A stretch of 64,000 bases of DNA, taken from contig NZ_CANMEZ010000001.1 of the NCBI RefSeq assembly GCF_947496985.1, positions 124,001 to 188,000 on the forward strand, given 5' to 3'. Positions 20,969 to 32,423 of the stretch are shown piece by piece; the first letter of the stretch is position 1, and every line of letters begins with the position of its first letter. The DNA comes from an uncultured Kordia sp. Its GTDB lineage: Bacteria; Bacteroidota; Bacteroidia; Flavobacteriales; Flavobacteriaceae. The notes below the pieces were generated by a model. That model was not told where the DNA came from. It saw only the letters and a list, made by a program, of their open reading frames with translations, and searched no databases. The translations under genes and the position numbers were made by a program.

Positions 20969-21041
20969 ATAGCTATGGTGTAATTGGATAGCACCAGAGA
21001 TTTCTAATCTCTTAGTCTAAGTTCGAGTCTTAGTAGCTATA
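20969..21041 (+). tRNA. tRNA-Arg(TCT)
   Basis: A full cloverleaf: 7-bp acceptor 20969-20975/21034-21040, D stem gtgt/gcac, anticodon stem agaga/tctct, loop tttctaa with anticodon TCT at 21003-21005, T stem ctaag/cttag with loop ttcgagt, and discriminator A at 21041. CCA is not encoded (next bases caa). The variable region is short (4 nt). Confidence 0.88.
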
Positions 21042-21046
21042 CAAAT

Positions 21047-21118
21047 AGTATCGTGACTCAACGGTAGAGTGCTCGACTGTCTCTCGAGAAGTTGCGGGTT
21101 CGAATCCCGTCGGTACTG
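21047..21118 (+). tRNA. tRNA-Asp(GTC)
   Basis: The acceptor agtatcg/cggtact has one T-G wobble. D stem actc/gagt, anticodon stem ctcga/tcgag, loop ctgtctc with anticodon GTC (21079-21081), and T loop ttcgaat. Discriminator G at 21118 matches Asp identity. CCA is not encoded. It begins 5 nt after the previous tRNA. Confidence 0.9.
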
Positions 21119-21123
21119 CAAAA

Positions 21124-21196
21124 CTGAGAATAGAACAATTGGCTGTTTACCTGTTTTGGATACAGGAGGATGTAGGTTCGAATCCTGCTTCTCAGA
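21124..21196 (+). tRNA. tRNA-Pro(TGG)
   Basis: Perfect acceptor ctgagaa/ttctcag, D stem gaac/gttt with wobble, anticodon stem cctgt/acagg, anticodon TGG (21157-21159) and T loop ttcgaat. Discriminator A. Its last 15 bases plus downstream spacer are duplicated at 21262-21283. Confidence 0.88.
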
Positions 21197-21261
21197 CGAA
21201 AAAATCAAAATCAAGTATGCTTGAATTTGGTTTGCAATGAGACGTTGCAGGAACACTTTGT

Positions 21262-21283
21262 GAATCCTGCTTCTCAGACGAAA
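21262..21283 (+). pseudogene. Duplicated 3' fragment of tRNA-Pro
   Basis: Twenty-two bases are identical to 21180-21201: the T-stem 3' side, acceptor 3' strand and spacer of tRNA-Pro. The upstream sequence has gcagga/tcctgc pairing but no matching 5' acceptor (ctgagaa) or anticodon arm, so this is a broken copy. The inserted segment 21202-21261 is otherwise unassigned. Confidence 0.75.
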
Positions 21284-21293
21284 TAATTAAAAT

Positions 21294-21365
21294 GCTCCGT
21301 TGGTCAAACGGCGAAGACGCTACACTTTCTATGTAGAGTTAGGGGTTCGATTCCCCTACGGAGTA
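21294..21365 (+). tRNA. tRNA-Glu(TTC)
   Basis: Acceptor gctccgt/acggagt (terminal G-T wobble), a 3-bp D stem gtc/gac, anticodon stem ctaca/tgtag, anticodon TTC (21327-21329), T stem agggg/cccct and loop ttcgatt. Discriminator A; CCA is not encoded. Confidence 0.88.
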
Positions 21366-21371
21366 CAAAAC

Positions 21372-21454
21372 ACCTGTGTGATGGAACTGGTATACAAAAC
21401 AGTCTTAAACGCTGTTGTGCGAAGCACATGTGGGTTCGAATCCCACCGCAGGTA
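21372..21454 (+). tRNA. tRNA-Leu(TAA), class II
   Basis: Acceptor acctgtg/cgcaggt, anticodon stem acagt/gctgt, loop cttaaac with anticodon TAA (21406-21408), a long variable arm tgtgc/gcaca as expected for Leu, and T stem tgggttcgaatccca. Discriminator A. This is the only class II member of the array. Confidence 0.9.
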
Positions 21455-21460
21455 CAAAAT

Positions 21461-21534
21461 GCAGAGATGATGTAACTGGCAAACATACCTGACTTAGACC
21501 CAGGTTCCTGAGAGTTCGAATCTCTCTCTCTGTA
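21461..21534 (+). tRNA. tRNA with Leu anticodon (TAG) on a class I body
   Basis: Acceptor gcagaga/tctctgt, D stem atgt/acat, T stem gagag/ctctc with loop ttcgaat. The anticodon stem is cctg/cagg plus an A-C mismatch at 31-39, and the loop cttagac gives anticodon TAG (21495-21497), which reads CUA. The variable region is only 5 nt, unlike normal class II tRNA-Leu. Charging identity is therefore uncertain. Confidence 0.75.
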
Positions 21535-21561
21535 CAAACGCAATCTTGAAAGGAGTGCAAC

Positions 21562-21633
21562 AAGTTTATGGTGTAATGGATAGCACATTGGTTTACGAAG
21601 CCAAGAGTATAGGTTCGAATCCTATTAGACTTA
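21562..21633 (+). tRNA. tRNA-Arg(ACG)
   Basis: Acceptor aagttta/tagactt, D stem gtgt/gcac, anticodon stem ttggt/gccaa with a closing T-G, loop ttacgaa with anticodon ACG (21595-21597), and T loop ttcgaat. This is the second Arg tRNA of the array. A 27-nt spacer precedes it, longer than the usual 4-8 nt. Confidence 0.87.
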
Positions 21634-21638
21634 CAAAT

Positions 21639-21709
21639 TGACTCATGTTGTAATGGCAGCAGGCGAGACTTTGACTCTCGAGGTAAAGGTTCGAATCCTT
21701 TTGGGTCTA
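21639..21709 (+). tRNA. tRNA-Gln(TTG)
   Basis: Anticodon stem cgaga/tctcg, loop ctttgac with anticodon TTG (21671-21673), T loop ttcgaat. The acceptor pairs at positions 2-7 and has a T-T mismatch at 1-72; a weak first pair is typical of Gln tRNAs. Length is 71 nt. Confidence 0.85.
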
Positions 21710-21713
21710 CTAT

Positions 21714-21786
21714 AGCGATATAGCTTAATTGGTAAAGCACTGGTCTCATAAGCCAGAAGTTGAAAGTTCAAATCTTTCTATCGCCA
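21714..21786 (+). tRNA. tRNA with CAT anticodon (Met elongator or Ile2)
   Basis: Anticodon stem ctggt/gccag, loop ctcataa with anticodon CAT (21747-21749), D stem gctt/aagc, T stem gaaag/ctttc with loop ttcaaat. The first acceptor pair is A-C mismatched. The anticodon stem lacks the GGG/CCC of initiators, so it is not fMet. Lysidine-modified Ile2 cannot be excluded. Confidence 0.85.
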
Positions 21787-21794
21787 CTAAAAAT

Positions 21795-21867
21795 AGTGAT
21801 ATAGCTTAACTGGTAAAGCGTCAATCTGATAAGTTGGCAGATGAAAGTTCAAATCTTTCTATCACTA
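21795..21867 (+). tRNA. tRNA-Ile(GAT)
   Basis: Perfect acceptor agtgata/tatcact, anticodon stem tcaat/gttgg with wobble ends, loop ctgataa with anticodon GAT (21828-21830), and T loop ttcaaat. The D and T arms are almost identical to the preceding CAT tRNA, which suggests duplication inside the array. Confidence 0.88.
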
Positions 21868-21874
21868 CAAAAAT

Positions 21875-21947
21875 GGTGTCTTTAGTTTATTTGGTAAAAC
21901 GCCTCACTGTGAATGAGAAGAACAGGGTTCGAATCCCGAAGTCACCC
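21875..21947 (+). tRNA. tRNA-His(GTG), degenerate
   Basis: The loop ctgtgaa gives anticodon GTG (21909-21911), and the discriminator is C, both as for His. The acceptor has one T-T mismatch, the anticodon stem one C-A mismatch, and the T stem only three clean pairs. The encoded G(-1) needed by bacterial HisRS is not evident (T at 21874). Confidence 0.75.
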
Positions 21948-21951
21948 AAAA

Positions 21952-22024
21952 GGAATAATAGCAGAGTTGGTCAATGCGCTGGATTGAAGTCCCAGAGATA
22001 TAGGTTCGAGTCCTATTTATTCCA
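21952..22024 (+). tRNA. tRNA-Phe(GAA)
   Basis: Perfect acceptor ggaataa/ttattcc, anticodon stem ctgg/ccag plus one A-C mismatch, loop ttgaagt with anticodon GAA (21986-21988), and T stem ataggttcgagtcctat. Discriminator A; CCA is not encoded. Confidence 0.87.
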
Positions 22025-22031
22025 CAAAAAG

Positions 22032-22535: not shown

Positions 22536-22979
22536 ATGCTACGCTTATTAAAAAAAGGAATAGAATTCTTCGTGCGTTTTTTTAAGGGAGAACCGCAAAA
22601 AGCTGAAAATACAGTACTAGAAATTCAACAAGATGTCATATTAGATATCATGGACAGACTTTCTGATTTTGAGCATAAAAAAAGGTTCTTAAAACATACT
22701 TCTTTGCATTTATTAGCGAAGAAACTTCAAACAAATCCTAAGTATCTATCTAAAATCATTAATATTCATTATGAGAAAAATTTTAGTTCGTATATCAATG
22801 ATTTACGCATAAAATATCTCCTCAAAGAATTGCAAAAAGATAGTTTACTCAAAACATATACTGTAAAAAAATTAGCAAAAGAGTTAGGTTTCAATAATAC
22901 AGAAGTTTTCTCTAAAGCTTTCAAAAAACATACTGGTGTAAATCCTTCAAACTACTTAAACAGTTTGAAACATTCTTAA
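22536..22979 (+). CDS. AraC-type helix-turn-helix protein
   Basis: The 147-aa protein has a C-terminal AraC DNA-binding domain (about 45-145): HLLAKKLQTNPKYLSKIIN for the first HTH and VKKLAKELGFNNTEVFSKAF plus HTGVNPSNYL for the second. The short N-terminal part (1-40) is amphipathic and basic, with no ligand domain. It stands alone between two terminators and may regulate the adjacent RiPP locus (23343 on) or the array; the sequence does not show which. Confidence 0.85.
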   Translation: MLRLLKKGIEFFVRFFKGEPQKAENTVLEIQQDVILDIMDRLSDFEHKKRFLKHTSLHLLAKKLQTNPKYLSKIINIHYEKNFSSYINDLRIKYLLKELQKDSLLKTYTVKKLAKELGFNNTEVFSKAFKKHTGVNPSNYLNSLKHS

Positions 22980-23342: not shown

Positions 23343-24875
23343 ATGGAAACAAGCCAAGAAAATACCCCACAAAACGATGTATTAGAAATCAAAGTATACG
23401 TGCCGATTAATGAAATTACGAAGCGACAACAAGGAATGATCGACAACGCACTTCACAAACATCCAAGAGATCGAAAATACTTATCAAACACATCACATTC
23501 TAAAATCTTCGCTCCTAGTAAAGATGATGCCGATGAAATTATTGAACACGCAAAAGCTAATAATTGGGATGTATCATTTAATAAAACAGCACGAGAGATT
23601 ACGATTAGAATAAAATCAGATGATATCGCTAATGAAGATAGCCCAGTAAGTATTGAAGCGTTAAAGTTTTTAAGTTCACAAGGAGATATTCATTTAGATG
23701 CAGCAGGTAATGAAAAACAAGAAAATGCAAGCGCAGAAGACATTGTAAATCCTAATCAGAAAACAGGTTTTGTGAAAAGCAATCAAGAAAAAAGAGTTGG
23801 TAATGGGTATACTGTTCCAATTCAGGAACCTGCACATGGACATAGTGCTATTGAAATTGCAGAGGCGTACAACTTTCCAGAAGGTGACGGAGCAAAACAA
23901 ACTATTGGAATCATAGAACTAGGAGGGAAATTTGAACAAAGTGATTTAGAAACTTACTTTGAATCATACAATTTGGAAGTTCCAGAAATTCAAGTAATTG
24001 GTAAGCCAGCTACAACTCCAATAAACGATAACGTAGAAGTAACCGCAGATATTCAAGTATTAGGATCATTAGCTCCAAAAGCAAAATTAGTAGTGTATTA
24101 TGGAACTACAATTTTACAAGCTATGAAAACTGCTTTAGCAGATACCAAAAATAAACTCACCGTAATTTCTATCAGTTGGGCAGGATCAGAATTAGGATAC
24201 TCGCAACAAGAAATCATAGAATTAAATACTGTTTTTCGTGAAGCATCTTTAAAAGGAATCACTGTTCTTGGTGCTTCTGGTGACAGTGGAGCTTTAAACA
24301 ATAAAGAATATGCGAATGTAAATGTTCCTGTAAACTTTAAAAATGTATTAGGCTGTGGAGGAACGCAACTTGAAATTTATGAGGAAAGAATCATCGCTGA
24401 AACGGTTTGGAATGAAACTACACGACAAGCACAAGTAGGAACTGGTGGTGGTTTTAGTCAACGCATTTCAGAAGCTCCATTCCAAGTAGAAGCTATTCAG
24501 GCTTACTTAGAAAAATTCCCAGAATTTGAACCATACCACAGAGCTGGAGGAACAGGTATTCCTGATGTTGCAGCAAATGCAGCAGACGCTACTGGTTATG
24601 CAATCTTCTTTGAAGGAAACTGGGCAAAAATTGGCGGCACAAGTCTAGCTACTCCACTTTGGGCAGCACTTATTGCTCGTATGAATCAAAACTTAGGCTA
24701 CAGACTAGGGTTCATTAATGAACACTTATATAAATTAATGAACTCAGAGGCATTTCATCAAATTACAGAAGGAAACAACAACTTATACATCGCTGCAGAA
24801 GGTTGGAATCCATGTACAGGTTTAGGATCTCCTGATGGGACAAAACTAATGGAAGCTATTGATGCTTTAGACTAA
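23343..24875 (+). CDS. S53 family serine-carboxyl peptidase (sedolisin/kumamolisin-like)
   Basis: The 510-aa protein has a pro-domain (about 12-95, KYLSNTSHSKIFAPSKDD) and a catalytic domain with E232 and D236 (NVEVTADIQ), oxyanion Asp314 (GASGDSG) and nucleophile Ser434 (IGGTSLATPLW). The C-terminal GWNPCTGLGSPDG segment fits the calcium site. All catalytic residues are intact. No signal peptide is seen, so export by classical Sec is unlikely. It is the first gene of the RiPP-like locus, 33 bp before the 134-aa gene, and could mature the repeat precursor (inference). Confidence 0.9.
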   Translation: METSQENTPQNDVLEIKVYVPINEITKRQQGMIDNALHKHPRDRKYLSNTSHSKIFAPSKDDADEIIEHAKANNWDVSFNKTAREITIRIKSDDIANEDSPVSIEALKFLSSQGDIHLDAAGNEKQENASAEDIVNPNQKTGFVKSNQEKRVGNGYTVPIQEPAHGHSAIEIAEAYNFPEGDGAKQTIGIIELGGKFEQSDLETYFESYNLEVPEIQVIGKPATTPINDNVEVTADIQVLGSLAPKAKLVVYYGTTILQAMKTALADTKNKLTVISISWAGSELGYSQQEIIELNTVFREASLKGITVLGASGDSGALNNKEYANVNVPVNFKNVLGCGGTQLEIYEERIIAETVWNETTRQAQVGTGGGFSQRISEAPFQVEAIQAYLEKFPEFEPYHRAGGTGIPDVAANAADATGYAIFFEGNWAKIGGTSLATPLWAALIARMNQNLGYRLGFINEHLYKLMNSEAFHQITEGNNNLYIAAEGWNPCTGLGSPDGTKLMEAIDALD

Positions 24876-24908
24876 GCAACACATTTAATCTCACTAAAAC
24901 ATAAAATC

Positions 24909-25313
24909 ATGGCAAAAAAGTTAGCATTAGATGAACTTCCAAAACGTTTAATTGTGGATGGAAAAAAAGTAGAAGATGTGATAATGATCTATGGGTTTGT
25001 TGCTGAAGGTCCTGATGAAGACAACATCACGTTTTATTTAGACACACTACTAAAAACTTCTGTAGTAATTAAAGATGAAGATATCATACACGATGTAAAC
25101 ATTACAAAAACACATAGTGCTATTGGTGGTACCATTATCTGGGTAAAAAATGCATCTTCCTACTTACAAGGAAATGGTATGCAATCACAACAAGATGATG
25201 CACAACAATTCTTTCAAGGCGATATCTATCAACAATATGCAAACACTGCACAAGGAAATAATCCTACGCAACCACAAGCTTCAGTATGTGGCTGTGGTCA
25301 ATGTGGAAAATAG
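24909..25313 (+). CDS. Small protein with Cys-Gly C-terminal tail, possible second substrate
   Basis: The 134-aa protein has a folded-looking N-terminal part (about 1-85, alternating strands such as RLIVDGKKVEDVIMIYG and AIGGTIIWVKN). A Gln/Asn-rich linker follows, then a tail ending SVCGCGQCGK. The tail could be a modifiable core or a metal-binding site. No homologous family is recognised. It lies between the S53 peptidase and the repeat precursor and is likely co-transcribed. It may be a partner or carrier of the repeat protein rather than a substrate. Confidence 0.7.
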   Translation: MAKKLALDELPKRLIVDGKKVEDVIMIYGFVAEGPDEDNITFYLDTLLKTSVVIKDEDIIHDVNITKTHSAIGGTIIWVKNASSYLQGNGMQSQQDDAQQFFQGDIYQQYANTAQGNNPTQPQASVCGCGQCGK

Positions 25314-25397
25314 ACAATTAAATAAGTCAAGCTCAATCAAAACATGAGAGTCATAAGGAATTAAAAATCATATTATTAACCTTTAAATTTAATTATT

Positions 25398-26780
25398 ATG
25401 TTTACATTTTTTCAAGGATGTGGAATACCTCCTGTTACCCTAACTTGTGGTAATGTTGGTGGCGCACATGCACAAAATGTAGGACCTACAGGGACATATG
25501 GTTGTACGCAACCAAGTCATTGTGTTGGACCTACAGGAACACAAGGGTGCACAATTGTTGGACCAACTGGTTACCAAGGATGCACACAACCAACAACTAT
25601 TTTAGGACCAACTGGAACGCAAGGTTGCACGCAGCCAGGTCATTGTGTTGGACCTACAGGAACGCAAGGTTGTACACAACCTCAAACAATTTTACCTCCA
25701 ACTATTGGATGTATCACTGTAACAACTACCGTTGCTACTACAATTGGAGGAGCACACGCTCAAGCGCAAACAATTGGACCAACTGGTACACAAGGTTGTA
25801 CACAGCCAGGACATTGTTTAGGGCCAACTGGAACGCAAGGTTGTACACAACCACAAACAATTTTGCCTCCAACATTACCGCCAGCATGTGTACCACACAC
25901 AGTTGGATGTACGGCTATTACACCTTGCCCAACAATACCTTGTCCTCAAGGTGGAAATGCGCAAGCACAAACTATTATACCGCCAACTATTGGATGTATT
26001 ACAGTTACGACAACTATTGCTACTACAGCTGGAGCACATGCACAAAACGTAGTACCAAATACAATAGGATGTACAGCAATTACACCATGCCCAACAATTA
26101 CTCCTCCATGTGGTGGAAATGCGCAAGCACAAAATGTTGGAGTTACTGGATGGAGAGGATGCATTCAACCAACTGGAACACCACCAGCTACTGTTTGCCC
26201 ACAACCAACAGGTACTGCGCAAGCACAAACTGTATTTCCTACTGAAATTTGTCCTACCTTAATAGGTTGCCCAGCTGCTGCACACGCACAAAATGTTGGA
26301 CCAACAGGAACACAAGGTTGCACGCAACCAGGTCATTGTGTTGGAGAAACTGCATATCCAGGATGTACTTTTGTAGGACCAACTGGTACACAAGGATGTG
26401 GTCAAGATAATGCTGCACAAGCACAAACATTAGGACCAACAGCTTACCAAGGATGTTCAGGAACTGCTGCTACTCTTTGTACACAAGTAACTTGTGACGG
26501 TGGAGATGCACAAGCACAAACCTTAGGACACACTGCGTATCCAGGATGTGGAGAGCATGGAACTGCTGCAACACTTTGCACACAACCAAGTATGTGTGGT
26601 GGACCAACTCATCTTTTAGGATGCACAGGTTACGAAGGATGTCACCAACAAGGAACTGCTGCTACAGTATGTACGCAAGTAGGATGTGATGGTGGAAATG
26701 CACAAGCACAAATCCATAGTATCCCAGTTGCTGATTGTATCCCTACACGTAGTTGTACAGGAGCATGGCCAGTATGTTAA
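25398..26780 (+). CDS. Thr/Cys-rich repeat protein, probable multi-core RiPP precursor
   Basis: The 460-aa protein contains about 42 cysteines. It is built from units such as GPTGTQGCTQP, QTILPPTIGCITVTTT, GCTAITPCPTI and GTAATLCTQV. Ten A-[HQ]-A-Q spacers (residues 23, 121, 188, 213, 242, 274, 295, 340, 371 and 435 on) divide it into segments of about 20-95 residues. There is no signal peptide or conventional leader; the start is MFTFFQGCGI. Thr preceding Cys fits dehydration and (methyl)lanthionine formation by the APH, HopA1 and LanC-like enzymes encoded next. A structural, unmodified Cys-rich protein is the alternative. A hairpin after the stop separates it from the enzymes. Confidence 0.8.
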   Translation: MFTFFQGCGIPPVTLTCGNVGGAHAQNVGPTGTYGCTQPSHCVGPTGTQGCTIVGPTGYQGCTQPTTILGPTGTQGCTQPGHCVGPTGTQGCTQPQTILPPTIGCITVTTTVATTIGGAHAQAQTIGPTGTQGCTQPGHCLGPTGTQGCTQPQTILPPTLPPACVPHTVGCTAITPCPTIPCPQGGNAQAQTIIPPTIGCITVTTTIATTAGAHAQNVVPNTIGCTAITPCPTITPPCGGNAQAQNVGVTGWRGCIQPTGTPPATVCPQPTGTAQAQTVFPTEICPTLIGCPAAAHAQNVGPTGTQGCTQPGHCVGETAYPGCTFVGPTGTQGCGQDNAAQAQTLGPTAYQGCSGTAATLCTQVTCDGGDAQAQTLGHTAYPGCGEHGTAATLCTQPSMCGGPTHLLGCTGYEGCHQQGTAATVCTQVGCDGGNAQAQIHSIPVADCIPTRSCTGAWPVC

Positions 26781-26819
26781 TAATAGCTTATCTTAATCAG
26801 ATATAGCTATTTTTTATAT

Positions 26820-26848
26820 AAAGCTGCCTGTAAATTACAGGCAGCTTT
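26820..26848 (+). terminator. Hairpin between repeat precursor and enzyme genes (attenuator-like)
   Basis: aaagctgcctgta and tacaggcagcttt form a near-perfect 13-bp stem. The T tract is weak (ctttc), so partial termination is likely. RiPP loci often use such a leaky hairpin to make more precursor than enzyme. Confidence 0.7.
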
Positions 26849-26872
26849 CAAAAAACTCAAAAAATTACTTTT

Positions 26873-27952
26873 ATGCGCTTAACAAAGAAAAATATTACTC
26901 ACTATCTACTAGACAAAGGTTTTTTAGAACCATCTTCTTTCATGTCTGGTGATTATATGCTTACGCAAACGCAAAGCAGAAATTCTATATTTAAAATTCA
27001 ACAACAACAAGCACAAGGATTGTTTGTTAAGCAATTGGTTGCCCAAGATTCTACAAATAGTTACTTAATGCAGAAAGATGCTACAAGTCACTATTTAATT
27101 CATAAATCAGATTTATACAAAGAAACTGCAAGCCATATTCCAGATTATTATGGGTATGATCCGTATCATAATATTTTAGTTACAGAATATTTTGCCAACA
27201 CAAAAAATGTACATGAAGTAACCTACAGAGACAAACAATTATCAAAACAACATGCAGTTAAAATGGCGCATATTTTAGCTTCTTTTCATTTTGATATTAC
27301 TGAAAAAATTAAAGACAATAGTTCGCTTCAGTTTTTTAGCAAACAATTACCTTGGATTTTAAACACAGGACAACTATTAAATTCAAGTTCGAATGGAATT
27401 ACAAATACGGTCATTGCCGAAATTCACAAACACCAAGATTTAGTTCAAAAAATAGAAAAAATAGCAACGAAGTGGGAAACAACTAGTTTAATTCATGGTG
27501 ATATCAAATGGATGAATTTTATTGTGATGCCAAACAATGAAGACGTAAAACTTGTAGATTGGGAAATTGCAGATTTAGGTGATCCTTTATGGGATGTTGC
27601 TGGTGTTTTTCAATCATATTTTAGTGCTTGGGTTTTAAGTTTCAACAATCAAAACATACAACAGCACCAACAAATACAAGGAAACGAATTTTTATCCATA
27701 GACGCCATTACACCAGTTGTAAAACTACTTTGGGATACCTATGCTGAGAAACAAGAATTTACTTCTATAGTATCCAAAGAAAAATTATTAAAAACACTTT
27801 CATACATGTCAGTTCGAATGATTCAAACTGCTTTTGAAAACAATGTAGCACAACAACAACTACATGCCAATTCCGTAAGAATACTACAATTCTGTAATCA
27901 CATTTTAGGAGATACAGAAGGAATTGCTAAACAATGGAATTTAATAGACTAA
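26873..27952 (+). CDS. APH-like kinase, class V lanthipeptide dehydration component
   Basis: The 359-aa protein has an aminoglycoside-phosphotransferase/choline-kinase fold. The catalytic loop is LIHGDIKWMN (H208, D210, N215), with the metal-binding KLVDWE (D229) and GDPLWDVAG after it. Paired with a HopA1-like protein, such kinases phosphorylate Ser/Thr of a precursor before elimination in class V lanthipeptides and thioamitides. Here it precedes HopA1 by 4 bp. Antibiotic resistance is an alternative function, but the neighbours argue against it. Confidence 0.88.
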   Translation: MRLTKKNITHYLLDKGFLEPSSFMSGDYMLTQTQSRNSIFKIQQQQAQGLFVKQLVAQDSTNSYLMQKDATSHYLIHKSDLYKETASHIPDYYGYDPYHNILVTEYFANTKNVHEVTYRDKQLSKQHAVKMAHILASFHFDITEKIKDNSSLQFFSKQLPWILNTGQLLNSSSNGITNTVIAEIHKHQDLVQKIEKIATKWETTSLIHGDIKWMNFIVMPNNEDVKLVDWEIADLGDPLWDVAGVFQSYFSAWVLSFNNQNIQQHQQIQGNEFLSIDAITPVVKLLWDTYAEKQEFTSIVSKEKLLKTLSYMSVRMIQTAFENNVAQQQLHANSVRILQFCNHILGDTEGIAKQWNLID

Positions 27953-27956
27953 GGAG

Positions 27957-29012
27957 ATGAAAGATACTATACATACAAAACAAATAAAGGAAATTACAAA
28001 AGCAATAGAAATTACTTCACTTAGCACTTATAAAGTTCATGGAGAAGAAGAATATGTGAAAAATCAAATGCCGTATCAAACATTTGCAGAAGATTTTAAA
28101 TCGTTCGGAAGTAACACTAGTGTTGATGCAAAACAACAACGTAGTAATCTTGTCAACGCATTAACAAATACCATCTATGCAAAATTTTATTGTGGCATCA
28201 AAAATGGAGATCATACTTCTAAAATTCCACCAAAAGCAGCACGTGACGCCTTCATGGAAACACTCTCTCAAGCAAACACTTCTACAAATGGATTTGATTA
28301 CCATTGGAATATATACAATGTAGATACTTCAACTGGTAATGCATACGTTCAAAAAAATGGTGAATTACGTTGGTTGCAACCAAATGGATATCAATTTGTA
28401 AATCCGCAACAAAAACAAGCTGCAGTTAATACAAAAGTAAACATCGCGCGTCAAAAAGAAAACAGAAACATTCAACCTGTATTTTATCATGTATTCAGTA
28501 ATGAAATGTTTCCACAAGAAGTAGAATTGGGAAGAATTTACTGGAATGTAACTCCTGAAGGTGCAGCGCCATTAATAAACTTACTCACAACAACACTCAA
28601 CGAATACAAAATTCCATTTCAGTTTAAATGTTTAAACCATCCTGATTTATATGTACGATCGGATGCTGCCGTTTTATACCTCAGCAAAAAACACGTACAG
28701 CTAGTTTCTATCATACTAAAAAGTGTAATTCCAAATTTAGAACCGTATCTTGTAGACGAAATTCCAATGTTCACCAAACAAATTTTTAAAGGTGTTGGAT
28801 ATGCGGAAGATCCAGGGAAAGGGCAAAGTTTTGGTATGAGCAGATCATCAACCATTGCAGAAGCATTAGTTGATGCTTTTCAACAAGAAAAAAACAAAAA
28901 GGAAACACTTACCAATGTAATCAACTTTTTATCAAGAAAAGGAATGACATTAGACCGTTTACACCTTAACAAACATACAACACTAACGCCAACCTTCCCA
29001 AGCTATGAATAA
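27957..29012 (+). CDS. HopA1-like protein, probable phosphate-elimination lyase
   Basis: The 351-aa protein resembles the HopA1/LanY family. Visible features are PKAARDAFMETLSQ near residue 90, RIYWNVTPEGAAPLI, and the C-terminal EIPMFTKQIFKGVGYAEDP. In class V lanthipeptide pathways this family acts with an APH-like kinase to remove phosphate from pThr or pSer and give dehydro-amino acids. No other lyase is encoded nearby. It starts 4 bp after the kinase gene and overlaps the LanC-like gene by 8 bp, so the three are translationally coupled. Confidence 0.8.
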   Translation: MKDTIHTKQIKEITKAIEITSLSTYKVHGEEEYVKNQMPYQTFAEDFKSFGSNTSVDAKQQRSNLVNALTNTIYAKFYCGIKNGDHTSKIPPKAARDAFMETLSQANTSTNGFDYHWNIYNVDTSTGNAYVQKNGELRWLQPNGYQFVNPQQKQAAVNTKVNIARQKENRNIQPVFYHVFSNEMFPQEVELGRIYWNVTPEGAAPLINLLTTTLNEYKIPFQFKCLNHPDLYVRSDAAVLYLSKKHVQLVSIILKSVIPNLEPYLVDEIPMFTKQIFKGVGYAEDPGKGQSFGMSRSSTIAEALVDAFQQEKNKKETLTNVINFLSRKGMTLDRLHLNKHTTLTPTFPSYE

Positions 29013-30270
29013 TATTGAAATCACTACAAAAACAGCTATAAATATGTACGTGAAAACAGCACACAACATTGGAAAGTATTTAGCAAAAGAAGCTATTTGG
29101 TATAAAAATATGTGCAACTGGGCTGGTCACGAAGTAAATATCGTTGGCGACAAATACGAAACTGTTGTAAAAGCCTGTAGTATTGATCTATACAGCGGAC
29201 TTACAGGAATTGCGCTATTTCTAACTGAGTTATATGACAAAACTCAAGACCCAATCATAATGCACACATTGCAAGGCACATTAAATACAATTGAATATAA
29301 CTTAGAAGGGGACAAAATAAACAACTTCGGGTATTACTCTGGAAAAATTGGTGCAGGATATACCTTATGGAAAATTGGAAAAAAACTAAGAAACAACGAA
29401 ATTGCCTCAAAAGGACTCGCCTATGTAAAATCTGTAAAAGACAAAGAAATTGCAAATCATGAAGTAGATATCATTTCTGGCGCTGCCGGATCAATTTCTG
29501 TATTATTAAAATTATACTATGCAGAACAAGATGAAGAATGTTTAGAAATAGCAAAAAAATGCGGTCAATTCTTATTAAACAAAACCATTAAAAATGAAGA
29601 CACCTGTGCATGGATGACGGTAGATGCCACCAATGCATTAACTGGATACTCACATGGAGCTTCCGGAATTGCCTCTGCATTAATGGAATTATACGCAACT
29701 ACCAAAAGTGAAGAATATTGGCATGCAGCAATGGGCGGATTCAATTACGAAAAAAAGTGGTTCAATGATCAAACACAAAACTGGCCAGATTTACGAGAAT
29801 ATAAAGGCGACAAACCGTTAAGTTATGGAACTATGTGGTGTCATGGCGCGCCAGGAATTGCCATTGCTCAACTCAAAGCATACGAAATGACGCAACATGA
29901 ATACTTTTTACAAGAAGCTAAAATTGCTTTAGAAACAACAAAAAGAGCAGTTATTCAAGAAACGAATCCTAACTCAAAAGCTAACTTTTCACTATGTCAC
30001 GGTTTGGCTGGAAATGCAGACATATTATTATACGGACATCAAATACTGAACATTCCTGAATATGTAGAAGTTGCAAAAAAAGCAGGTGACTTTGGTATTT
30101 CGCAATACGATGCAACAGGCGTTGTATTTCCTAGTGGCGTAAATGATCCTAGTGGGCTCACTATTGGGCAACAAGAAAATCAAGGGTTGATGTTAGGACT
30201 CTCAGGAACAGGAATGTTTTACTTACGTTTAGACGATATGATGAATATTCCTTCTGCGTTGGTTCCTTAA
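29005..30270 (+). CDS. LanC-like lanthionine cyclase
   Basis: The 421-aa protein is an alpha/alpha barrel with GxxG-type repeats (LYSGLTGIAL, GYSHGASGIAS, WCHGAPGIAIA, LCHGLAGNADI). The zinc ligands C279, C331 and H332 are all present, as in active LanC cyclases. It would catalyse addition of Cys thiols to dehydro-residues, forming (methyl)lanthionine rings. It is the last gene of the locus, followed by a strong terminator. No transporter is encoded in the locus, so how the product leaves the cell is open. Confidence 0.92.
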   Translation: MNNIEITTKTAINMYVKTAHNIGKYLAKEAIWYKNMCNWAGHEVNIVGDKYETVVKACSIDLYSGLTGIALFLTELYDKTQDPIIMHTLQGTLNTIEYNLEGDKINNFGYYSGKIGAGYTLWKIGKKLRNNEIASKGLAYVKSVKDKEIANHEVDIISGAAGSISVLLKLYYAEQDEECLEIAKKCGQFLLNKTIKNEDTCAWMTVDATNALTGYSHGASGIASALMELYATTKSEEYWHAAMGGFNYEKKWFNDQTQNWPDLREYKGDKPLSYGTMWCHGAPGIAIAQLKAYEMTQHEYFLQEAKIALETTKRAVIQETNPNSKANFSLCHGLAGNADILLYGHQILNIPEYVEVAKKAGDFGISQYDATGVVFPSGVNDPSGLTIGQQENQGLMLGLSGTGMFYLRLDDMMNIPSALVP

Positions 30271-30611: not shown

Positions 30612-30893
30612 TAGTTCAATTCAATTTTCGAAAAACTTGTACTGAACTTAATTCAGTATCTAAAACAAATACATTAGCAAAGACATTATTTTAGTAAGCA
30701 TAAAAATATAAACCATATACTGCAGTTAGTACCGTTTCTTCTTTATCCTTACATCTAAAAGCCTAGCGATCTTTTTCAAGCAACAGTAATTTTCTTTCAT
30801 TCCGGTGTAAAGTTTTAAAAAAAAACTCGTCTCAATGTAGACTATTTGATTTTGCGTATTTTAGCAATTCTCAAATATAAACACGCATACAAC

Positions 30894-31229
30894 ATGGATA
30901 AATCATATTATAACCCAAGAGACTTAAAAAAATTCGGATCAATTACAGAATGGAGTGAAGAACTTGGAAATAAATTCTTTGAATATTATGGTAAAGTCTT
31001 CGAAGAAGGCGCACTAACACCACGTGAAAAATCATTAATTGCTTTAGCTGTATCACACACAGAGCAATGTCCGTATTGCATTGATGCATATACCAAAGAT
31101 GGTTTACAACGCGGAATTACTAAAGAAGAAATGATGGAAGCCATTCATGTAGGTGCAGCTATCAAAAGTGGTGCAACATTAGTACATGGAGTACAAATGA
31201 TGAACAAAGTAAATAAATTAGAAATGTGA
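30894..31229 (+). CDS. AhpD-like carboxymuconolactone decarboxylase family protein of the arsenosugar cluster
   Basis: The start ATG at 30894 gives 111 aa (MDKSYYNPRDLKKFG). The AhpD-type redox motif is EQCPYCIDAYTKDG, with helical flanks GALTPREKSLIALAVSHT. Proteins of this kind are annotated as arsenosugar biosynthesis-associated peroxidase-like proteins and are found with ArsS and ArsM, as here. The CxxC should be redox active. An in-frame upstream extension to 30846 is less likely because it adds a non-conserved hydrophobic tail. Confidence 0.85.
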   Translation: MDKSYYNPRDLKKFGSITEWSEELGNKFFEYYGKVFEEGALTPREKSLIALAVSHTEQCPYCIDAYTKDGLQRGITKEEMMEAIHVGAAIKSGATLVHGVQMMNKVNKLEM

Positions 31230-31323
31230 TTTTTATAGTTTTCAATTATAAAAATCATTCTGAGCGCACTGCATTGAGTAAAATCGAAATGAAGTTGAAA
31301 GATCTCTAAAAACCGAAATACGC

Positions 31324-31331
31324 TAAATTTG
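31324..31331 (+). promoter_or_regulatory. Bacteroidetes -7 element upstream of arsS
   Basis: TAAATTTG matches TAnnTTTG exactly, 36 bp before the arsS ATG. A TTG at 31295-31297 is 26 bp upstream, longer than the usual spacing, so only the -7 box is well supported. Confidence 0.45.
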
Positions 31332-31367
31332 TGTATACAATCTAGAGGCGAAAAATAAAATTGATCA

Positions 31368-32423
31368 ATGGCGACAAAGTCCCTTAAGAAAAGAGAAAGT
31401 GAATTAGCAAATACACAACGACAATTAGAAATTCTATCTAACGGAATTTTTCAAAGTGGTGAATTGCCAACGTTCGCAAAAAAAATAAAAGAAACAAATC
31501 AATTTCCCCTAAAACCTAAAAAAATTGAAATATTACAAATCAATGTAGGTTATATGTGTAATCAGGTATGTTCGCATTGTCATGTAGATGCAGGACCTGA
31601 TAGAAAGGAAATTATGACGCGCGAAACCATGCAACAATGTTTGGATGTCATTGAAAAAACAGGTGCGCATACACTCGATTTAACTGGTGGAGCGCCAGAA
31701 ATGAATCCGCACTTTCGTTGGTTTGTAGAAGAAGCTTCAAAAGTTGGAGTAAAAGATTTCATAGTTCGATCAAACTTAACAATCATTCGCGCCAACAAAA
31801 AATACTACGATTTACCTGAATTCTTCAAAAAACACAATGTACATGTTGTTTCCTCAATGCCACACTGGACACGTGGAAAAACAGACAAACAACGTGGTGA
31901 TGGTGTTTTCGATAAATCAATAAAAGCATTACAAGAACTAAATGCCGTTGGGTATGGAATGCCAGATAGTGGCTTACGATTAGACTTGGTATACAATCCT
32001 TCTGGAGCGTTTTTACCAGGTGATCAAATGGCTATGGAAAAAGATTTCAAAAAAGCGTTATTGGACGATTTCGGGATTCAATTTCACAACCTATTTGCAA
32101 TCACAAACTTGCCAATCAGTCGTTTCTTAGATTACCTTATTGCTTCCGAAAATTATGAAGATTATATGTATTCTTTAGTAGAAGCATTCAATCCTGGCGC
32201 GGTTGCTAATGTGATGTGTACCAATACAATTTCTGTAAGTTGGGACGGTTGGTTATACGATTGTGATTTCAATCAAATGCTCGATTTAAAAGTAGCCAGT
32301 AAATCACAACACATATCAGAATACAACGAAGAAGATTTAAGCAAACGAAACATCATCATCTCACAACACTGTTATGGCTGTACAGCTGGTGCTGGAAGTA
32401 GTTGTCAAGGAACGGTTGCTTAA
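31368..32423 (+). CDS. arsS: Arsenosugar biosynthesis radical SAM protein ArsS
   Basis: The 351-aa protein has the radical SAM cluster motif CNQVCSHCHVDAGPDRKE and LDLTGGAPEMNPHF. The C-terminal cysteine-rich region, CYGCTAGAGSSCQG, is typical of ArsS. The family is proposed to convert an S-adenosyl-derived arsenic intermediate into the 5'-deoxyarsenoriboside core. It belongs to the cluster running from 30894 to 37049 with ArsM. Confidence 0.92.
   Translation: MATKSLKKRESELANTQRQLEILSNGIFQSGELPTFAKKIKETNQFPLKPKKIEILQINVGYMCNQVCSHCHVDAGPDRKEIMTRETMQQCLDVIEKTGAHTLDLTGGAPEMNPHFRWFVEEASKVGVKDFIVRSNLTIIRANKKYYDLPEFFKKHNVHVVSSMPHWTRGKTDKQRGDGVFDKSIKALQELNAVGYGMPDSGLRLDLVYNPSGAFLPGDQMAMEKDFKKALLDDFGIQFHNLFAITNLPISRFLDYLIASENYEDYMYSLVEAFNPGAVANVMCTNTISVSWDGWLYDCDFNQMLDLKVASKSQHISEYNEEDLSKRNIIISQHCYGCTAGAGSSCQGTVA

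Follow-up and report, generated by a model that had tools for sequence, protein, structure and literature searches.

Within a stretch of 64,000 nucleotides from the genome of an uncultured Kordia sp. (contig NZ_CANMEZ010000001.1, positions 124,001 to 188,000; hereafter the window), six co-oriented genes specify, in order, an S53 peptidase, a protein of 134 residues (p134), a long repeat protein rich in Thr and Cys, an APH-like kinase, a HopA1-like lyase and a LanC-like cyclase. Judged from its sequence, this operon probably makes a thioether-bridged repeat peptide, with the repeat protein serving as a multi-unit substrate in which Thr is dehydrated and rings are closed, and so would represent an unusual system for a ribosomally synthesized and post-translationally modified peptide (RiPP). 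The evidence comprises the genes and their domains, active-site residues, genomic linkage and selection, together with the Thr–Cys geometry of the repeat protein, the recurrence of a short motif within it, and the covariation of a hairpin that follows its gene.

Thr–Cys geometry of the repeat protein

The sequence-only reading of this DNA had described a giant repeat protein, not a short precursor peptide, in a member of the Bacteroidota, and that description stands. The protein carries 42 Cys, 87 Thr and 5 Ser in its 460 residues, and Lys and Arg together account for two. Homologues were found in ten Kordia genomes (the window's own included), where they range from 282 to 585 residues, and in DT_35, a metagenome-assembled genome (MAG) of the Flavobacteriaceae, where the protein has 308; the statistics that follow refer to these 11 proteins. 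Thr far outnumbers Ser (715 vs. 45), and a Thr or Ser occupies position -5 relative to 269 of the 395 Cys, against 72.3 (standard deviation 7.3) in 300 shuffles with Cys positions fixed, a score that overstates independence because the repeats are related by descent, which weakens the case to that extent. A smaller excess is seen at -3 (117 vs. 79.3). When only distinct contexts were counted, defined as a Cys plus its eight preceding residues (n = 191), 126 had Thr or Ser at -5, 178 had one at -2 to -5, and every one had at least one within the eight residues. In five other proteins of the operon the -5 position is Thr or Ser for 18 of 141 Cys. The T/S-x4-C hexamers occur in 65 distinct forms in the ten Kordia proteins, with all of ACA, ACT, ACG and ACC used as Thr codons, and a crude clustering sorts their inner four residues into eight groups, of which one is large. 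Thr or Ser stands at -5 for 28 of the 42 Cys in the window's own protein; of the remaining 14, Thr lies at -3 or -2 for nine and at -4 for three, and for two Thr or Ser occurs only at -6.

A second recurrent feature is the motif A-x-A-Q, present in 6–10 copies per protein where shuffled sequences average at most 0.37, and division at this motif gives 7–11 units per protein, each of 14–108 residues. The two ends of the protein are nearly constant: the first 17 residues in the ten Kordia proteins have median proportions of non-synonymous (pN) and synonymous (pS) differences of 0.026 and 0.43, and the last 22 residues, in nine Kordia proteins, of 0.040 and 0.50. The protein left out of the latter comparison is that of Kordia aestuariivivens (L020:4504-5748), in which the repeat gene stops before the C-terminal block kept by the nine others, with a diverged remnant beyond. 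The first block, CG-x-PP-[VI]-T-xx-C, starts at residue 8 and reappears internally in 5 of the 11 proteins (L015, L019, L020, L023 and L032, the last being DT_35), and for this reason the N terminus appears to be a repeat module rather than a leader.

Enzymes, linkage and p134

The coordinates and gene calls of the sequence-only reading held when checked by open reading frame calls and domain matches, and Pfam confirmed its dehydration and cyclization gene set, with the PF01636, PF17914 and PF05147 matches all above their cut-offs (Table 1). It had not mentioned p134 or the AraC-type protein encoded upstream; the latter possibly belongs to the system, and its gene lies upstream of the S53 gene at nine of ten Kordia loci, with the start of the tenth contig too near to judge. 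The host genome comprises 5.48 Mb in 61 contigs.

Table 1. Features of the operon and its surroundings, with positions in the window
Feature	Position	Strand	Evidence
AraC-type helix-turn-helix protein, 147 residues, likely regulator	22536-22979	+	PF12833 3.3e-16
S53 (sedolisin/kumamolisin-like) serine-carboxyl peptidase, 510 residues	23343-24875	+	kumamolisin match 1e-70
p134, 134 residues, invariant C-terminal CxCxxC, candidate trans-acting leader/recognition protein	24909-25313	+	
Repeat protein, 460 residues, proposed multi-unit lanthipeptide-type substrate, units ending A-x-A-Q	25398-26780	+	
Hairpin and T-run directly 3' of the repeat gene, terminator/attenuator-like	26782-26811	+	
Second strong hairpin, 13 bp, ahead of the kinase gene	26820-26848	+	folding
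APH-like kinase (LanK/LxmK-like)	26873-27952	+	PF01636 2e-7
HopA1-like phospho-Ser/Thr lyase (LanY-like)	27957-29012	+	PF17914 1.4e-37
LanC-like cyclase, presumed zinc ligands Cys279, Cys331, His332	29005-30270	+	PF05147 3.9e-66

The lyase, the cyclase and the peptidase retain their active-site residues. The kinase scores 31.5 bits against the PF01636 cut-off of 23.2, and its HGDxxxxN and DW/GDP motifs, which we take to be functional, are invariant among homologues; its profile gave no match against solved structures. In the LanC-like protein, whose gene overlaps that of the lyase by eight bases, Cys279, Cys331 and His332 are invariant in all ten proteins and are presumably the zinc ligands. 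It matches LicM2 and NisC chains among solved structures, and among NCBIfam models it comes nearest to the cyclase end of LanM (TIGR03897, 6.3e-82, 275.7 bits, cut-off 304), of which only model positions 548–931 of 932 are covered, so that the N-terminal LanM dehydratase domain is not matched. The Glu, Asp, Asp and Ser of the S53 peptidase that line up by eye with those of kumamolisin are presumably catalytic; its match to Pro-kuma_activ (E 2.1e-4, 22.0 bits) falls slightly under the cut-off of 23.5, and no hydrophobic signal was seen at its N terminus by simple hydropathy. The lyase matches PF17914 with 129.6 bits, and its Arg193, Lys224, Arg234 and Tyr241 are invariant in ten proteins. Their spacing (31/10/7) and context, although not derived from an alignment with CaoY, agree with the pattern Arg187, Lys219, Arg229 and Tyr236 (32/10/7) described for that protein in the sections of PMC9486802 considered here, where mutants of the first three lost elimination or showed it weakened.

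The genes are tightly linked. Of the 11 genomes of the genus, the same 10 contain the lyase, p134 and the repeat protein, the last at this locus only; the gene order S53–p134–repeat–APH–HopA1–LanC is identical at all ten Kordia loci. In the eleventh genome (G003) the lyase, p134 and the repeat protein were not found, the remaining operon genes not having been searched for genome-wide, and the 8 kb around its gene for the radical SAM protein ArsS hold that gene, its peroxidase-like neighbour and, upstream, a gene for a protein of 856 residues, with none of the operon. Among 299 genomes sampled from the family, the lyase and the repeat protein co-occur in the same three, namely the window's own, another Kordia, and DT_35, where genes for S53, the repeat protein, APH, HopA1 and LanC stand in order. 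In DT_35 (L032:8001-9053), one in-frame TAG interrupts the lyase frame and runs of N lie in the kinase frame, possibly assembly faults. A homologue search for gene order thus finds the repeat gene linked to the enzymes at ten Kordia loci and in DT_35, with the peptidase gene leading the operon at all 11, as the sequence-only reading had placed it. Of 395 genomes sampled across the phylum, only the window's own was matched by PF17914 (E ≤ 1e-3), and the same was true of the APH profile (E ≤ 1e-10). HopA1 and phosphotransferase genes are also present on a Runella plasmid. A link to viruses was rejected, no relative of the lyase having been confirmed in the viral_contigs set. Median ratios of non-synonymous to synonymous substitution rates (dN/dS; 45 pairs per gene, 44 usable for LanC) are 0.071 for APH, 0.092 for HopA1, 0.096 for LanC, 0.130 for S53 and 0.173 for p134.

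The tail of p134 (CGCGxC) has three Cys that are invariant in the ten Kordia proteins, with Ser or Thr at no fixed distance from them (at -5 for 2 of 30). p134 has no Pfam match; its NCBIfam match and two matches among solved structures are chance-like, and tblastn with p134 found nothing in plasmids. A probable relative is specified on a plasmid of Deinococcus sp. QL22 (L037:5117-5683) by an unannotated frame that begins with a p134-like domain, continues into a Cys-rich tail, and lies just upstream of a kinase gene followed by genes for a HopA1-LanC fusion and an S8 peptidase. The similarity was detected by two-sequence BLASTP (E 4e-6) and by hhalign (4.9e-5, probability 68), and when the p134 profile was compared with the 846 stop-to-stop segments of seven plasmid loci the Deinococcus frame gave E 1.8e-4, the next best being 3. 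In a tblastn search the Deinococcus putative precursor finds itself only. Homology between p134 and the N-terminal domain of this frame is probable, not certain, and on such similarity p134 may be regarded as a candidate leader acting in trans.

Directly after the repeat gene, the first hairpin is followed by at least four T at all ten Kordia loci. It has 12 pairs, and 94.2% of the 120 cells are paired; three pairs are changed on both sides, which 3 of 500 shuffles reach, and the covariation score of 0.135 is reached by none of 500, these being counts that are not probabilities when sequences are related. Nine of the 10 stretches, as cut, contain a second strong hairpin, which has a different sequence in two; the tenth was shortened by the chosen start codon. 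We infer that the hairpins probably cause partial termination, keeping the substrate in excess of the enzymes.

Other features surround the operon. Close upstream, 12 tRNA genes are clustered on the + strand (window 20969-22025), and directly downstream (window 30846-32423) are genes for a peroxidase-like protein and ArsS, of the arsenosugar type. The latter two were considered as parts of the system and rejected because the one Kordia genome that is free of the operon also has them. The host genome has three more LanC-like matches: L002 (contig C15), L003 (C1) and L004 (C5, partial). In L002 a nucleotidyltransferase-like gene precedes the LanC-like match, as the consulted part of PMC11118758 notes for Kordia.

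Proposed chemistry and rival readings

In the proposed pathway, the APH-like kinase would phosphorylate Thr in the repeat protein, the HopA1-like lyase would remove the phosphate to leave dehydrobutyrine, and the zinc LanC would add the Cys five residues downstream, giving methyllanthionine rings of six residues (T-x4-C), alongside a minority ring class at T-x2-C. The enzymes would probably recognize their substrate through p134 as an element in trans, through the recurrent A-x-A-Q, or both, and the S53 peptidase would probably cleave at A-x-A-Q, releasing some 7–11 units of about 14–108 residues; whatever export and biological function the products have we infer in the same conditional spirit. 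A fuller version, which we put forward tentatively and consider possible but on balance doubtful as a whole, is a split-leader system in which a leaderless multi-unit substrate of several hundred residues receives dozens of six-residue methyllanthionine rings, p134 acts as a separate leader and is kin to the leader domain of a precursor elsewhere, S53 releases the units at A-x-A-Q, and fast turnover of the repeats yields species-specific product sets.

Several observations weigh against these proposals. The best NCBIfam match of the kinase, LxmK (4.1e-19), has 68.9 bits, far below the cut-off of 315. Domain scans saw no transporter among the seven genes (the operon and the AraC-type gene), farther neighbours not having been searched for one, and simple hydropathy gave no obvious signal peptide for six window proteins. 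The first hairpin shows no more pair types than shuffles do (196 of 500). The structure model of p134 is weak (predicted local distance difference test 60, predicted TM-score 0.51) and matches no fold at E ≤ 0.001; its similarity to the Deinococcus frame is modest, being detected by plain blastp from only 5 of the 10 p134 sequences (8e-6 to 0.004), and another plasmid segment reaches 0.004 with one p134 query. In DT_35 there is no p134 beside the repeat gene and none elsewhere in this 81%-complete MAG, searched with the same query that detects p134 in the ten Kordia genomes; p134 is therefore not strictly needed there. The window's own protein has no internal copy of the N-terminal block, three of the units of L020 cut at A-x-A-Q contain no Cys, and the choice of A-x-A-Q as the cut site is a guess from its recurrence.

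A live rival, in our judgement unlikely, is one in which the repeat protein is modified in the same way and then left whole as a lanthionine-bridged structural or surface polymer, S53 and A-x-A-Q serving export, assembly or turnover, or the motif merely spacing ringed blocks. The great range in length while both ends stay constant is what would be expected of a whole functional unit, and the A-x-A-Q units are very uneven, down to those three that lack Cys. On the other hand, the motif recurs far above chance, a peptidase gene leads the operon at every locus, and in domain scans the repeat protein matches no surface-anchoring or sorting domain, all of which speak against this rival.

Two further readings deny the repeat protein its role as substrate. 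That p134, with its CGCGxC tail, is the true RiPP substrate and the repeat protein a Cys-rich protein that stays unmodified and has a structural or metal-binding role is improbable: the likeness of p134 to the N-terminal domain of the putative Deinococcus precursor and its three invariant Cys speak for it, but no fixed distance separates these from Ser or Thr, DT_35 retains the enzymes and the repeat protein in the absence of p134, and the Thr–Cys geometry is found in the repeat protein. Least probable is an ordinary collagen-like or exosporium-like repeat protein that lies beside RiPP enzymes by chance. The protein does have GPTGTQ-like stretches and a weak match to the collagen-like adhesin Lcl (20.2 bits, cut-off 500), but G-x-y runs reach at most 3–4 triplets in the ten Kordia proteins, Gly makes up at most 28% of any reading phase, and its linkage to the enzymes is strict; the short runs and low Gly content largely refute a collagen-like protein. 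A modified, multi-unit substrate is the reading carried forward here.

Comparison with known systems

The enzyme grouping has precedent. Genome mining in the sections of PMC8153245 considered here covered 1,340 HopA1 proteins, 96% of them with a phosphotransferase and 20% near or fused to LanC, and its authors propose dehydration by HopA1 and the phosphotransferase with lanthionine formation by LanC. That mining targeted short peptides, its clusters (Family 11/20, 22) are predictions, and no product of the LanC families is named in the genome-mining section. The same three enzyme genes are adjacent at all ten Kordia loci, but in place of short precursors there is a repeat substrate of 282–585 residues without evident leader, accompanied by p134 and S53, and between the S53 and kinase genes of the window lie p134 and the repeat protein, with no short precursor. 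The novelty claimed by the sequence-only reading accordingly survives for the giant repeat substrate and falls away for the enzyme grouping.

The same reading had assigned the enzymes to class V, which was correct for the kinase and lyase pair: LanK (APH) and LanY (HopA1) are shared with the class V lanthipeptides, or lanthidins, such as cacaoidin, lexapeptide and pristinin A3. As described in the sections consulted of PMC9486802 and PMC9415263, class V clusters also encode a second APH-like protein (CaoX/LxmX), which has been linked to cyclization, and a flavin-dependent Cys decarboxylase for aminovinyl-methylcysteine (AviMeCys), and class V precursors have a leader (CaoA, PMC9486802), which is not evident here. 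The Kordia operon has a zinc LanC in place of the second APH-like protein and carries no decarboxylase, and a filing under class V was rejected because neither of these two genes is in the operon. The operon has one APH-like gene, the rest of the genome not having been searched for a second, and the single PF02441 flavoprotein gene of the genome lies on another contig.

Another close counterpart is the putative Deinococcus sp. QL22 plasmid cluster (L037), where a p134-like domain, APH, HopA1-LanC and a serine peptidase occur in one gene run. There, however, a short Cys-rich tail extends the p134-like domain, a single fusion takes the place of separate HopA1 and LanC proteins, the annotation assigns the peptidase to S8 and not S53, and the frames listed include no giant repeat protein. 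Related plasmid loci carry short putative precursors, for example of 80 residues in Aliiroseovarius and 101 in Rhizobium. The former, on a plasmid of Aliiroseovarius crassostreae (L039:5413-5655), has three CxxVxFTAxC repeats and no evident leader, and APH, HopA1 and LanC are separate genes beside it. No relative of the repeat protein was found in plasmids by a search that masks low-complexity sequence. Homologous loci without the repeat gene, a concern of the sequence-only reading, are thus absent from Kordia and DT_35 but do occur among these more distant enzyme loci with short putative precursors, and the giant repeat substrate is therefore a trait of this lineage rather than of the enzyme set. 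Multi-core RiPPs such as cyanobactins, fungal dikaritins and freyrasin also have several product units in a single ribosomal precursor. Those precursors differ in chemistry and in bearing a leader or a signal peptide.

For Kordia itself, a lanthipeptide cluster in K. antarctica (PMC7477175), Kordia-specific RiPP clusters with a proteusin-like example (PMC10734526) and a LanC with a nucleotidyltransferase (PMC11118758) have been reported, and the portions of these three papers considered here do not describe the operon. The main text of PMC10885120 does not mention sedolisin, S53 or kumamolisin, and no paper on this operon was recognized in searches of the open PMC literature, which is not proof of absence.

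If the proposed chemistry holds, three synthetase genes would put dozens of rings into one chain, and the repeat protein would be, to our knowledge and from a search that was not exhaustive, the largest lanthionine-type substrate. Ten natural variants in Kordia would then be at hand for studying leaderless recognition, and the undefined HopA1-LanC synthetases would become testable in cultivable marine bacteria. RiPP mining commonly seeks short, leader-bearing peptides (e.g., the parts of PMC8153245 considered above), and a leaderless substrate of 282–585 residues would escape it. Compared with these known systems, the new elements here are p134, the S53 partner and a giant repeat substrate that evolves fast, added to an enzyme set that had already been predicted in print.

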